The notes under the pieces: model-generated | The model's input: only the letters and a program-made list of their open reading frames with translations | What the model was told of the DNA's origin: nothing | The model's database searches: none | Assembly (NCBI RefSeq): GCF_000337555.1 | Contig: NZ_AOIO01000022.1 | Span: forward strand, 1-64,000 | DNA length: 64,000 nucleotides | Direction of reading: 5' to 3' | DNA from: Natrialba asiatica DSM 12278 | GTDB taxonomy: Archaea > Halobacteriota > Halobacteria > Halobacteriales > Natrialbaceae | Shown: piece by piece, positions 1,319 to 58,441 of the stretch | Numbering within the stretch: the first letter of the stretch is position 1 | How the letters are laid out: every line of letters begins with the position of its first letter | Position numbers and translations under genes: made by a program

Positions 1319-2326
1319 ATGACAAGCCTGACGGAGGCGTACGAGGGGAACACCCGGGAGGTGACGAGCCGACGGCGGCTGTACGCCGGCACGGGGCTCG
1401 TCCTGGTGGGTGCGATTCTCGCCGTCGTCGCCGTACTCGTCGCCACGACGGACGTCGCCGCCGAGTTCGTGGTCGGGTTCACCGATTGGGGAATGGGCGA
1501 TGGGTACGCGGTCGTCCGCGTCGCCGGCGTCCTCGCGGGGATCGGCGTCCCGGCCGCACTCGTCGGCGTCTTTACGGTTTTGCCGGCGAGCCGCCGCGTT
1601 CGGGCCGCCGCCGCGATCAGCGCGAGTCTCTGCCTCCTCGGGGTCGTGCTCTTCTGGTACGCCTACCCCCATCGCTGGCGCTACGGCAGCGATCAACTCA
1701 CGCTCGAAGTCTCCGCGATCTACCTCCTCGGCCTCTTCATCGCCGTCTGGTGTCTGTTCGTCGCCGTCGTCAACTTCAAAACGCGAAACGACCCCGGCGG
1801 CATGCTCGAGATGAACGTGACGCGGCACAATCAGACGGTCGTCGAAGTCGAGGAGTCGACCGATCCGGGCGGGCTCGGCGGTATCGGATTCCTCGGTGGA
1901 ACCCCCGACGGAGACGTCGAAACGCAGACGAACGGCGACGAAACCGACGGCGGTCTATCCTCCTCCCGATCGACTTCGTCCTCCTCAGCCGCCTCGAAAG
2001 CCGGACAGGCGAGAGAGGGGGCCACGACACAGTCGACAGCCGCCACCGGAGCCGTCACAAGCGACGGGGGCGCAACCGCAACCAAACTCTCCTCGCCGAT
2101 CGAGTCCGAGCCGCTCGGCGACGGCACGGACGCAGAAATCGTCACGGATGCGCCGGACGATGCCACAGCGACCGAACCAGCCGAGCCGACCGATCGCTAC
2201 TGTGGCAACTGCAGGCACTTCGAGTACGTCCGCTCGTCTTCGGGAATGGTTCCGTACTGCGCCTACCACGAACAGGGCATGGACGATATGGACGCTTGTG
2301 AAGAGTGGACGCCGAACCGCCGGTAA
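1319..2326 (+). CDS. Haloarchaeal membrane protein with C-terminal four-cysteine zinc motif (DUF7139-like)
   Basis: This 335-residue protein has four predicted membrane helices in the first 150 residues (starting near TGLVLVGAIL, VRVAGVLAGI, AAAISASLCL and SAIYLLGLFI). A long, low-complexity acidic and Ser/Thr-rich linker follows, then a conserved tail with CGNC, a second Cys in VPYC and a final Cys in DACEEW. That Cys spacing suggests a small zinc-binding knuckle exposed on one face of the membrane. I chose the ATG at 1319 (MTSLTEAYEG) because it follows a TATA-like element; an in-frame GTG lies nine codons upstream. I recall it as DUF7139, a haloarchaea-specific family. Its function is unknown; a scaffold or sensor role would be a guess. 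Confidence 0.8.
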   Translation: MTSLTEAYEGNTREVTSRRRLYAGTGLVLVGAILAVVAVLVATTDVAAEFVVGFTDWGMGDGYAVVRVAGVLAGIGVPAALVGVFTVLPASRRVRAAAAISASLCLLGVVLFWYAYPHRWRYGSDQLTLEVSAIYLLGLFIAVWCLFVAVVNFKTRNDPGGMLEMNVTRHNQTVVEVEESTDPGGLGGIGFLGGTPDGDVETQTNGDETDGGLSSSRSTSSSSAASKAGQAREGATTQSTAATGAVTSDGGATATKLSSPIESEPLGDGTDAEIVTDAPDDATATEPAEPTDRYCGNCRHFEYVRSSSGMVPYCAYHEQGMDDMDACEEWTPNRR

Positions 2327-2348
2327 GTGATAGCAGTCGCGGTACCGA

Positions 2349-2834
2349 TTAGAAGCCGATCGACTGCCGCGCGAGTTCAATTCCTTCCTGCGGGAACCGG
2401 AACACGAGAACCGCCGCCAGTGCGACCTCCGCGGCGGTCACGAGGACCGTCACGAGATCGGCGCGCCGACTGCTGACCGCGACGCCGACCGGCAGGCCGA
2501 ACTCCTGCTTCCAGAGGGGATAGAAGAGCGCGATCCCGCGCTTGCTCCCCGCCACGTCGAGGACGTAGTGCGTCAGAATACCGACCCAGACCCACTCGAG
2601 GTTGCCGAAGAGTTCGGGAAAGACGGCGAAGCCGGCCAGAATCGGCAGGTTGTGCAGCGTCTTTCTGTGCTTGCCGAACGCGGTGTCGACGTCCGGAAAC
2701 AGCGCGCCGAGCGTGATCGGAACGCCGATTGAGACGATGGTCTCGAAGGTCGCCAGATTCCCGGCCGGTTCGAGCAGGTATCCCAGTCCGATACTCAACA
2801 GCGCGGCGTTGAGGACGTGCCCCTTCTTGTTCAT
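2349..2834 (-). CDS. Membrane-bound metal-dependent hydrolase family protein (YdjM/LexA-regulated type)
   Basis: This 161-residue integral membrane protein begins MNKKGHVLNAALLSIGLGYLL, the typical opening of the DUF457/YdjM family (short N-terminus, early His, then a helix). A conserved LFPDVDTAFGKHRKTLHN segment and a later LTHYVLD supply the His and Asp residues normally proposed as metal ligands. Four hydrophobic segments are visible. I chose the ATG at 2834; the codon before it is GTG. The gene runs tail-to-tail with the DUF7139-like gene, with a gap of about 22 bases. A second, more distant member of the family is at 59141-59656. Substrate and reaction are unknown for the family. Confidence 0.85.
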   Translation of the reverse strand: MNKKGHVLNAALLSIGLGYLLEPAGNLATFETIVSIGVPITLGALFPDVDTAFGKHRKTLHNLPILAGFAVFPELFGNLEWVWVGILTHYVLDVAGSKRGIALFYPLWKQEFGLPVGVAVSSRRADLVTVLVTAAEVALAAVLVFRFPQEGIELARQSIGF

Positions 2835-2882
2835 CACCCGATACTCGAAATCCGACCGCCGAATAGCTTTCTTTTGTGACTC

Positions 2883-3488
2883 TCACTCGGCCGTATCAGT
2901 ATCGGTGTCGGTGTCGGTGTCAGTGTCAGCGTTAGTCTCGAGATCGATATCAGTCTCGGCGTCGACCGCCTCGGGATGCTGGCCTTTGACTTCCGCGAGC
3001 AAATCCGCGAGCGCCCGATCGACGGTCTTCGCGCGAACGTCCGCCCGGTCGCCGCTGAACTCGTAGCGCGAGACCGTCGCGTAAGAGGATTCGCTTCCCC
3101 AGGGACCGGCGTAGGCGACGCCGATGAAGACGGTGCCGACCGGCGTCTCCTCGCCCCCGCCGGTGGGCCCGGCGACGCCGGTGGTTGAGACGCCCCAGGT
3201 GACGTTCGTCACGTCGCGGACGCCGCGGGCCATCTCCCGTGCGACCGGTTCGGAGACAGCGCCGTGCTCATCGAGCGGTTCTCGACCGACGCCGAGGTGG
3301 CGGCGTTTGGCGTCGTAGGCGTAGGTCGTCAGCCCGGACTCGAAGTAGTCGCTCGCGCCCGGCACGGCGGTGATCGCCGCCCCGATCAGGCCGCCGGTAC
3401 AGGACTCGGCGACCGAAAGCGTTTCTTCGGTCTCTCGAAGCGCGTCGGCAACGTCCATCGGGAGGGTGCGATCGATGTCGTCGTTCAT
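2883..3488 (-). CDS. CinA C-terminal domain protein, nicotinamide-nucleotide amidase
   Basis: This is a 201-residue stand-alone CinA C-terminal (PncC) domain. It is predicted to deamidate NMN to nicotinate mononucleotide in the cytosol as part of pyridine nucleotide salvage. Visible family motifs are LSVAESCTGGLIGAAIT near the N-terminus, with the catalytic Ser/Cys region, and TTGVAGPTGGGEETPVGTVFIGV in the middle. The COG1058 N-terminal domain of full CinA is absent, as usual for the short form. I prefer the ATG at 3488 (MNDDIDRT) to one 10 codons upstream. The last 20 or so residues are a DT repeat (DTDTDTDT...) encoded by a GTGTCG hexanucleotide microsatellite, so the tail is probably variable and dispensable. 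Confidence 0.88.
   Translation of the reverse strand: MNDDIDRTLPMDVADALRETEETLSVAESCTGGLIGAAITAVPGASDYFESGLTTYAYDAKRRHLGVGREPLDEHGAVSEPVAREMARGVRDVTNVTWGVSTTGVAGPTGGGEETPVGTVFIGVAYAGPWGSESSYATVSRYEFSGDRADVRAKTVDRALADLLAEVKGQHPEAVDAETDIDLETNADTDTDTDTDTDTAE
2893..2930. repeat. GTGTCG/GTATCG hexanucleotide microsatellite in the cinA-like 3' end
   Basis: About six imperfect GTRTCR units in tandem encode the Asp-Thr repeat at the C-terminus of the neighbouring amidase. Units of six bases keep the frame when the copy number changes. Confidence 0.8.
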
Positions 3489-40209: not shown

Positions 40210-40282
40210 TTACTGGTCACCGCTCACTCGGCCACCGCTTACTGGTCACCGCTCACTCGGCCACCGCTTACTGGTCACCGCT
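40210..40282. repeat. 29-base tandem repeat, about 2.5 copies
   Basis: Two exact copies (40210-40238 and 40239-40267) of a unit starting TTACTGGTCACCGCTCACTC are followed by a partial third. It fills the gap between convergent genes. The copies abut with no spacers, so it is not a CRISPR array. Confidence 0.85.
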
Positions 40283-40288
40283 TGCCGC

Positions 40289-41293
40289 TCACTCGGACAC
40301 CAACGACTCGAGTTCATCCGGCGGCCCGCCCGAAAGTTCATCCCGCTCGTGAGGCGCATCGAACGCCAGATCTGGTCCGCGAGCGACGATCCGGCTCGGG
40401 TTGACGTCCGGATGCGTCGTGTAATAGTGTTCGTTGATGTGGGCCATATTCACCGTCTCGGCGACCCCCGGCGTCTGGTAGAGATCCCGCAGGTACGGCC
40501 AGAGCGCGCTGAACTCGTGGATGGCTTTGACGTTACACATGAAGTGAGTGTGGTAGACCTGGTCGAATCGAATCAGCGTCGTAAACATCGCGATATCGGC
40601 CTCCGTGAGTCGGTCTCCGGCGAGGTATCGCTGCCCTTCGAGCACGTCGTTCCAGTGCTCGAGCGCCGAGAACAGGTCGTCGATGGCCTCGTCGTAGGGC
40701 TCTTGCTCCGTGGCGAAACCGGCGCGATAGACGCCGTTGTTGATCGGATCGTAGATCTCGTCGATGATTCGGTCGACTTCGTCACGGTAGCCGTCGGGGT
40801 AGAGGTCGACATCGCGTGGAGCCAGGTCGTCGAACGCGGTATCGAGCATCCGCATGATCTCCGCGGACTCGTTGTTGACGATGGTGTCTTCCTGTGTGTC
40901 CCAGAGAACCGGCACCGTCACTCGGCAGGTCGCGTTCGGATCGGCCCGCACGTACAGTTCGCGCAAGTAATCGGCATCGTGGACGTGATCGCGCGTACAG
41001 CCGTCCTTGTCGGGTGTGAACTGCCAGCCGCCCGCCTCGCGGTAGGGATCGACAACGGAGACCGAGATGGCATCTTCGAGTCCCTTCAGTGCGCGTGTCA
41101 CGAGCGTTCGGTGCGCCCACGGGCACGCGTAGGAGACGTACAAATGGTAGCGGTCAGCCGCCGGCTGAAATCGCGCGTCGGGATCGTCGCGAACCCGGTC
41201 CCGGAACGTGGTCTCGTGGCGAGTAAACGCTCCCTCGTCGTCGGTCGATTCGGACGCATCGGTTCGCCACTCGCCGTCGACGAGCATGTTCAT
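40289..41293 (-). CDS. Glutathionyl-hydroquinone reductase-like (Xi-class glutathione S-transferase)
   Basis: This 334-residue protein has the ECM4/YqjG layout. The N-terminal thioredoxin-like domain carries the catalytic Cys in LYVSYACPWAHRTL, followed by VPVLWDTQEDTIVNNESAEIMRML (the cis-Pro and ligand-binding Glu-Ser pair). An all-helical C-terminal domain then has YLAGDRLTEADIAMFTTLIRFDQVYHTHFMCN. Such enzymes reduce glutathionyl-hydroquinones. Haloarchaea usually make gamma-glutamylcysteine rather than glutathione, so the thiol partner probably differs. Start ATG 41293. Confidence 0.92.
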   Translation of the reverse strand: MNMLVDGEWRTDASESTDDEGAFTRHETTFRDRVRDDPDARFQPAADRYHLYVSYACPWAHRTLVTRALKGLEDAISVSVVDPYREAGGWQFTPDKDGCTRDHVHDADYLRELYVRADPNATCRVTVPVLWDTQEDTIVNNESAEIMRMLDTAFDDLAPRDVDLYPDGYRDEVDRIIDEIYDPINNGVYRAGFATEQEPYDEAIDDLFSALEHWNDVLEGQRYLAGDRLTEADIAMFTTLIRFDQVYHTHFMCNVKAIHEFSALWPYLRDLYQTPGVAETVNMAHINEHYYTTHPDVNPSRIVARGPDLAFDAPHERDELSGGPPDELESLVSE

Positions 41294-56701: not shown

Positions 56702-58441
56702 ATGGTAACCGGGTGGCGATTTCGAATCGGGAGCGTTCTCGGAGTCATATCGCTGACAGTTTTTGCTGTTACCATCGCCAACCACCCAGTTTCACAATCA
56801 CTGTTTACGAGCGCGGTTCCGCTATTCAATCGGCTCGAAGTCACCGTCTTGACCGGCGAATCGTTCTTCTGGGCGATCCTGTTGAGGGTCCTCGCTGTAA
56901 CCGGCTGTCTGCTTCCGCTCTATAAACCGCGTCCCCGACGAACGCTCGATACGGCCCTGTTCGCCCAGAAACGAGTGCTGGTCGCAACGTTCGTTCTCGC
57001 AACGCTTGGCTACTTCAAGTGGTCACATCGTCTTCCGCGGGCAACGCTCGTGATGCTGACCGCGATTTTGCTCGTGACGATCCCCGCATTGTTTCTGGCC
57101 ATCAGACGGCGACCCGCCGGGTCGACCGGCCGAACGCTTATCGTCGGGGACGATCTCTCCCAGATCGAAGACATCTCCCCTGCCGTCGATGCGCCGCTCG
57201 TCGGCTATCTCTGTCCCTCAACCGCGACGACGCTTTCGTTCGACGAGGACCGATTCTATGACGAGTCACTGACGGCCGACGGCGGCGTTGCTATCGGTGG
57301 TTCGGAACCGAAACCGGACCCAAGTGCCGACGCGGACACAGCACAGCAACAGCAGTCTCACAACCGCGTACAGGAACAGCGTTCGAACGCTGCTGTGAGC
57401 GACTCCAGCACCCAGACCCAACAGGTCACGGCCCGGAATCAGGCTCAGAGCGACACCCAAACTCACCCCCAAACCACCACGCAACCCCGAAGCCGAACTC
57501 GGACCCAGGATCACACTCGCACCCAAAATCACACTCACGCTCACACTCACGCACACGCTCACACTCGAAACCGTCGTCCCCATCCACACCCAACCCACTC
57601 ACAGCGCGCCGACTCCCACCAGACTGAACTCGATACGCTACCCAGACGCGGTGGCCTGTCGAGACTCGAGACCGTTCTCGTCGAAGACGACATCGACACG
57701 GTCGTTCTTGCCTTCCACCAGCCGGATCGCGCAGAGTTCTTTGGTGCGCTCGATACATGCCAGGAACACGGCGTCAGTGTGAAGGTGCATCGCCAGTACG
57801 CCGACAGCGTCCTCGTCTCGGCCGGAGCCGTGGACAAGCTCGTCGATGTTGACCTCGAACCGTGGGATCCGTTCGATCACTTCTTCAAACGCGTCTTCGA
57901 CGTGATCTTTGCGGTGATCGGACTCATCGTGTTCGCACCGATTATGGTCGCAATTGCGGCCGCGATCAAACTCGATAGTCCGGGACCGGTGCTCTACAGC
58001 CAGGCGCGCACCGCCGGCTTCGGCGAAACGTTTCCCATCTACAAGTTCCGGACGATGATTCCGGAGGGTGAAACGGCGGTGCCGTCGACCGACGAGGAAA
58101 ACGACCGGATCACGCGCGTGGGACACGTTCTCCGACGGACGCATCTCGATGAACTCCCCCAGCTCTGGTCGATTCTACTCGGGGAGATGAGCGTTGTCGG
58201 TCCGCGGGCAGTCTGGACCGACGAGGAACCGCTACTCGAACGGGATGCGCCTGCCTGGCGAAAACGTTGGTTTGTCAAGCCGGGGCTAACGGGACTTGCA
58301 CAGATCAAGGGGGCAAAGAGTACCGATCCGAACATGAAACTCCGGTACGATCTCGAGTACATTCGAACGCAATCGATCTGGGTCGATTGCCTGATCGTCA
58401 TCCGGCAAGTCTGGACGGTCATCGACGAGTTCAGGAGCTGA
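56702..58441 (+). CDS. Polyprenyl-phosphate hexose-1-phosphate transferase (bacterial sugar transferase) with a His/Thr/Gln-rich insert
   Basis: This 579-residue membrane enzyme starts glycan assembly on a lipid carrier. Start ATG 56702 (MVTGWRFR) is chosen over 56672. Four membrane helices lie in the first 150 residues, then a Rossmann-like domain (RTLIVGDDLSQIEDI ... VETVLVEDDIDTVVLAFHQ), then the catalytic domain with FDHFFKRVFDVIFAVIGLIVFAPIMVAIAAAIKLDSPGPVLYSQARTAGFGETFPIYKFRTM and RRTHLDELPQLWSILLGEMSVVGPR, the WbaP/PglC family core. Residues about 203-310 are an extreme low-complexity insert (Gln, Thr, His, Arg; THTHAHTHAHAH) with weaker codon bias, splitting the Rossmann-like part. 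Confidence 0.92.
   Translation: MVTGWRFRIGSVLGVISLTVFAVTIANHPVSQSLFTSAVPLFNRLEVTVLTGESFFWAILLRVLAVTGCLLPLYKPRPRRTLDTALFAQKRVLVATFVLATLGYFKWSHRLPRATLVMLTAILLVTIPALFLAIRRRPAGSTGRTLIVGDDLSQIEDISPAVDAPLVGYLCPSTATTLSFDEDRFYDESLTADGGVAIGGSEPKPDPSADADTAQQQQSHNRVQEQRSNAAVSDSSTQTQQVTARNQAQSDTQTHPQTTTQPRSRTRTQDHTRTQNHTHAHTHAHAHTRNRRPHPHPTHSQRADSHQTELDTLPRRGGLSRLETVLVEDDIDTVVLAFHQPDRAEFFGALDTCQEHGVSVKVHRQYADSVLVSAGAVDKLVDVDLEPWDPFDHFFKRVFDVIFAVIGLIVFAPIMVAIAAAIKLDSPGPVLYSQARTAGFGETFPIYKFRTMIPEGETAVPSTDEENDRITRVGHVLRRTHLDELPQLWSILLGEMSVVGPRAVWTDEEPLLERDAPAWRKRWFVKPGLTGLAQIKGAKSTDPNMKLRYDLEYIRTQSIWVDCLIVIRQVWTVIDEFRS
57511..57567. repeat. CACTCR/CACAC low-complexity tract in the sugar transferase gene
   Basis: An imperfect repeat of CACACTCRC and CACGCACAC units encodes the His/Thr/Ala run of the sugar transferase insert. 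The surrounding 57309-57630 has the same skewed composition. Confidence 0.75.

Follow-up and report, generated by a model that had tools for sequence, protein, structure and literature searches.

A gene of Natrialba asiatica DSM 12278 raises the question of how a conserved membrane enzyme came to carry a 108-residue low-complexity insert, and whether the histidines of that insert serve a purpose of their own. The gene lies in the 64,000-nucleotide stretch analysed here (positions 1 to 64,000 of contig NZ_AOIO01000022.1; hereafter the window). The initial annotation had noticed about 107 such residues at 57309–57630, and our analysis confirms the insert within slightly different bounds (Table 1). 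Our preferred reading, with a probability of about 0.68, is that the insert is an intrinsically disordered loop of a large monotopic phosphoglycosyl transferase (Lg-PGT), grown by slippage and either tolerated or mildly useful. The expansion is probably of the ordinary low-complexity kind and represents one variant of a phenomenon already known.

Table 1. Features of the N. asiatica phosphoglycosyl transferase (PGT) gene; positions are those of the window
Feature	Residues	Positions	Strand	Basis
Lg-PGT gene (WbaP/EpsZ-type sugar transferase), 579 aa		56702–58441	+	Profile matches; start set by alignment of 59 homologues
N-terminal transmembrane helices	5–27, 53–74, 81–104, 113–135	56714–57106	+	AlphaFold model
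Rossmann-like regulatory domain, first half	beta1 145–149, alpha1 152–161, beta2 166–170	57134–57211	+	AlphaFold model, homologue alignment
Thr/Gln/His-rich low-complexity insert, 108 aa	201–308	57302–57625	+	Composition, codon use, 6-nt periodicity; block pLDDT 32–51
HTHAHTHAHAHT, six alternating His, encoded by a CACNCN tract		57530–57565	+	Sequence
Rossmann-like domain, second half	alpha2 319–328, beta3 333–337, alpha3 344–355, beta4 359–363, beta5 380–383	57650–57850	+	AlphaFold model
Catalytic PF02397 domain with D400-x12-P413 and D483-E484 dyad	396–574	57887–58423	+	Profile match; invariant columns

The gene product is a predicted Lg-PGT

Judged from its sequence, the product is a large monotopic phosphoglycosyl transferase, because it matches the PF02397 (Bac_transf) profile (E 4.4e-58, 196 bits against a cut-off of 27) as well as WbaP and PglC, and contains the DX12P motif and the D483-E484 dyad. 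The DX12P motif of the re-entrant helix and the Asp-Glu catalytic dyad belong to the Lg-PGTs as defined in PMC12802240. Among 59 aligned homologues D400, D483 and E484 are invariant, and P413 is at least 90% conserved. The best fold matches among solved structures are S. enterica WbaP (8T53) and C. concisus PglC, and a profile search returns the same proteins; 8T53 is the top match (E 1.2e-14), but with a low TM-score of 0.26–0.37. Profile search at E 0.001 gives no match to PF13727, the Rossmann-like DUF that in Lg-PGTs lies between the membrane bundle and the catalytic domain. The score for TIGR03022 (WbaP subfamily) is 169.8 bits against a curated cut-off of 403, and the match to TIGR03025 is likewise under its curated cut-off. 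The enzyme is WbaP-like, as had been proposed, and the TIGR03022 score gives no ground for inferring the sugar substrate. Transfer of a sugar-1-phosphate to polyprenyl phosphate would be the predicted activity of the class.

Similar to S. enterica WbaP, the protein combines a transmembrane bundle, seen in the AlphaFold model as four N-terminal helices, with a putative Rossmann-like regulatory domain and a re-entrant catalytic domain bearing the DX12P motif and DE dyad. In contrast to WbaP, it is haloarchaeal, has a very long disordered loop between beta2 and alpha2, and shows no C-terminal dimerising beta-hairpin in the model. Absence of this hairpin is shared with the Lg-PGT EpsZ of Myxococcus xanthus, which differs in being activated by the response regulator EpsW and for which the available text of PMC12802240 describes no comparable insert. 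The N. asiatica genome contains a second PF02397 gene (contig C23, 107068–110604), which is without the first 104 residues (the membrane helices) of its N. taiwanensis counterpart and is 97% identical to it over the remainder; from its sequence this gene looks truncated.

The insert is a predicted disordered loop in the putative regulatory domain

The AlphaFold model, made with 59 homologues, has a mean pLDDT of 75.5 and shows an alternating beta/alpha domain at residues 145–383. Block pLDDT is 32–51 over residues 181–310 and mostly 82–96 in the folded flanks, and residues 176–306, which lie between beta2 and alpha2, are almost throughout below 50. The insert is thereby predicted to be a disordered surface loop of the Rossmann-like regulatory domain, in agreement with the earlier placement in the Rossmann-like half of the enzyme, and by homology it would be cytosolic. 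In WbaP the corresponding domain has been proposed to be a nucleotide sensor, and UMP inhibits the full enzyme (PMC10942596). Any effect of the insert on nucleotide sensing is our inference.

Composition of the insert is strongly biased (T18, Q18, H13, S11, A11, R11, P8, D7, N5, V3, E2 and K1), with 12 basic and 9 acidic residues and without any Leu, Ile, Met, Phe, Trp, Tyr, Cys or Gly. Comparison of all open frames of at least 100 aa places in it the most His-rich 30-residue stretch of the window (10 of 30). When the residues of the insert are permuted, a fraction of only 6.5e-5 of the permutations contain a row of six alternating His. The DNA is periodic at 6 nt (lag-6 identity 0.50, against 0.27–0.29 in the flanks). 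Codon use departs from the rest of the gene, as had been noticed: ACT accounts for 7 of 18 Thr codons in the insert and 0 of 36 outside, and GC3 is 0.62 and 0.70, respectively. A search of the 4.4-Mb genome for four CACNCN units followed by CAC, with one mismatch allowed, found no second copy of the tract. The highest-scoring tandem repeat of the window lies elsewhere, at 40210–40292, and is a perfect 29-nt repeat of 2.5 copies (TTACTGGTCACCGCTCACTCGGCCACCGC).

HDHDH-type in-frame runs are present at the ends of two other proteins of the same genome, a pyridine-nucleotide-disulphide oxidoreductase and an AAA ATPase, so alternating His is not confined to the PGT gene. The oxidoreductase (L165 345–1958, contig C7) has a long HDHDHDHDH-rich tail, which is closer to a typical metal-type His region than the PGT insert is. 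An Orc1/Cdc6-type protein (L174 1219–3291, contig C40) has acidic and Gln/Ser-rich low-complexity stretches (TRTQAQSQSQSSPQSRP) ahead of its ATPase domain and another insert inside that domain.

The loop expanded once and in 6-nt units

Among 125 genomes of the family, full-length matches to the PGT were found only in two of the same genus (G042 and G047), which correspond to N. aegyptia and N. taiwanensis. Both species carry the gene in a matching neighbourhood, and their inserts are about 105 aa long. In about 100 further haloarchaeal homologues the loop at the insert site is short. Homologues were aligned for variation in insert length, a check already suggested with the initial annotation. 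Measured as the span between conserved anchors in 52 proteins, the loop has 144 residues in N. asiatica and 141 in both N. taiwanensis and N. aegyptia, against 69–71 in N. chahannaoensis, N. magadii, N. hulunbeirensis and strain SSL1 and 32–64 in the remaining proteins. A similar stretch has a median of 46 across 106 distinct homologues and gives the same picture. In a tree built without the loop, the three long-loop species form a clade (support 100/100) that is sister to the four shorter-loop Natrialba, and all seven form a clade (100/99). This topology indicates a single expansion, on the branch leading to the three-species clade. Together, the lengths and the tree make growth in two steps most likely, with a modest gain in Natrialba followed by a second one to about 140 residues.

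The gene order NhaC, glyoxalase, PGT is kept in all six other Natrialba, and two downstream genes are also conserved in five of the six, the N. magadii stretch being too short to tell. The neighbourhood differs in Natronorubrum texcoconense. Other members of each Natrialba clade share the pH preference of N. asiatica or N. magadii, respectively. Growth is at neutral pH in N. asiatica, compared with pH 9.5 in N. magadii (PMC3403918).

Exactly three indels separate the insert of N. taiwanensis from that of N. aegyptia, the two closest of the species: GAACCG, CAAACGCAGACC and CACAAC. They measure 6, 12 and 6 nt, and since each one adjoins like units they point to slippage in two-codon units. Together with the 6-nt periodicity, they bear out the earlier suspicion of a repeat expansion. 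Its description as recent fits only in part, because the insert itself is older than the divergence of the three species, with units gained and lost later. The dN/dS of 0.27–0.29 over the insert is unreliable, because dS is 0.86 in the insert and only 0.15–0.19 in the flanks, which suggests that repeat units are misaligned. Between N. taiwanensis and N. aegyptia, synonymous divergence of the PGT gene (L004 and L005, both 1501–3228) is 0.195 in the N-terminal part and 0.05–0.06 in the insert and C-terminal part, an unevenness that suggests recombination within the gene.

Tracts of five CACNNN units number 11–189 per genome in the seven Natrialba. Most of the remaining 118 genomes of the family have a few, though some other genera match the lower Natrialba counts. 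A reversed-pattern control is uninformative for this motif since the pattern is its own reverse. The 189 tracts of N. magadii amount to a genome-wide wealth of 6-nt repeats. N. magadii ranks first among the surveyed archaea in its number of low-complexity regions, 39% of which are acidic (PMC6821194). Literature searches for hexanucleotide slippage in haloarchaea and for His-rich haloarchaeal inserts found nothing of use.

Hydrophilic character is kept but charge is not

N. asiatica differs from N. taiwanensis and N. aegyptia at 39–40 aligned insert residues, and only one of these replacements is to a hydrophobic residue or glycine, where random point changes would be expected to give 34% (P about 1e-6, an optimistic value as the test assumes independent point mutations, an assumption violated by indels and repeat misalignment). 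Net charge is not maintained, being +3 in N. asiatica and −9 in both relatives, whose inserts start with EP/ET/DT repeats. The initial description of the insert as nearly uncharged or basic thus applies to N. asiatica and not to the insert in general. Acidic low-complexity regions are known from Natrialba and other halobacteria (PMC6821194), and the negatively charged inserts of both relatives resemble these, whereas the slightly basic, Thr/Gln/His-rich insert of N. asiatica is, as had been remarked, an exception to the acidic rule.

His is steady in number across the three species (13, 13 and 14), with 9–10 of 13 retained in the alignment, and alternating runs of 6, 4 and 5 His are present. 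This would fit selection for His. However, Gln is retained equally well (14–15 of 18), so the retention signal, as read from these alignments, is not specific to His. Loops of the four sister species in the N. magadii clade are about half as long, acidic and mostly with HxH: HDHD, HSHD or HGHD is found in three of them and HDQD in N. magadii, although pairing such motifs with the long His run is arbitrary in low-complexity sequence.

Alternative explanations

It is possible, though we regard it as unlikely, that the loop binds Ni, Co, Zn or Cu as a sensor or buffer, its alternating His altering the regulatory domain or dimer and coupling initiation of surface polysaccharide to metal supply. 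Prokaryotic His-rich low-complexity regions, which the insert resembles in low complexity and alternating His, are strongly enriched in nickel and cobalt proteins (PMC6821194). The alternating runs are kept in three species despite different intervening residues (T/A or D/N), and the HxH motifs of three of the four sister species point the same way. However, cobalamin-type regions average 53% His and about 32% Asp/Glu (PMC6821194), whereas the insert has 12% His and 8% Asp/Glu and is not of this His-dominated, acidic type. Gln and Thr outnumber His, Gln is retained to the same degree, and HDQD takes the place of HxH in N. magadii. In addition, no metal transport gene adjoins the PGT gene, and codons for His, Gln and Thr arise anyway from CA/AC-rich slippage units. 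A metal-binding role is therefore not favoured, and there is a modest chance of any His-dependent function. The combined proposal, that slippage gave one Natrialba lineage a His-rich metal-responsive arm on the PGT regulatory domain and with it metal-dependent control of cell-surface polysaccharide, appears distinctly unlikely.

Very unlikely, in our opinion, is that the loop docks a partner protein controlling dimerisation, in the way that EpsZ is controlled by the response regulator EpsW. The model is without the C-terminal beta-hairpin of the type that dimerises WbaP, and EpsZ, likewise without a hairpin, uses a protein activator (PMC12802240); but the loop varies too much in sequence to contain an obvious conserved docking motif, and no response regulator adjoins the gene.

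A minus-strand ORF of 110 aa (57266–57598) overlaps the insert, so that the conserved element could be the DNA or an antisense gene and the protein insert a by-product. This is highly improbable, as the indels add or remove complete codons of the PGT frame, hydrophobic residues are avoided in that frame, and the ORF translates as VSVSV-type low complexity. Insertion of a mobile element was rejected, there being no terminal repeats and a sole inverted pair of 10 nt with 90% match.

An assembly or sequencing artefact, a concern raised initially for this repeat in a draft of 49 contigs, is ruled out as the source of the insert by its presence at the same place, with different sequences, in three species, and is barely conceivable overall, although the exact number of units could still be wrong.

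A slippage-grown loop and its implications

The preferred reading, a slippage-grown disordered loop, is directly supported by the gene location, the single origin, the 6-nt-unit indels, the avoidance of hydrophobic residues and the predicted disorder. The starting point would have been the beta2-alpha2 loop of variable length present in all haloarchaeal PGT homologues examined. In the ancestor of the three neutrophilic Natrialba, the already longer Natrialba loop may have roughly doubled, mainly by replication slippage of 6-nt units that added dipeptides such as EP, QT/QA and HN/HT/HA. Later point changes would have left the loop hydrophilic, and further units were gained and lost after the three species diverged. 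The insert may be tolerated because it projects into the cytoplasm, as we infer. Its main effect would be steric or entropic, nucleotide sensing or dimer contacts would be modulated modestly at most, and a dedicated role for His would not be required.

If this reading is true, the gene would be a clear case of 6-nt slippage producing a long disordered loop inside a conserved membrane enzyme, and it belongs to the same genus as N. magadii, the richest in low-complexity regions among the archaea surveyed. If instead the metal-binding explanation is true, metal supply would be linked to the initiating step in the synthesis of surface polysaccharide. The nested loop lengths of about 40, 70 and 140 residues in related species make the effect of the loop directly testable.
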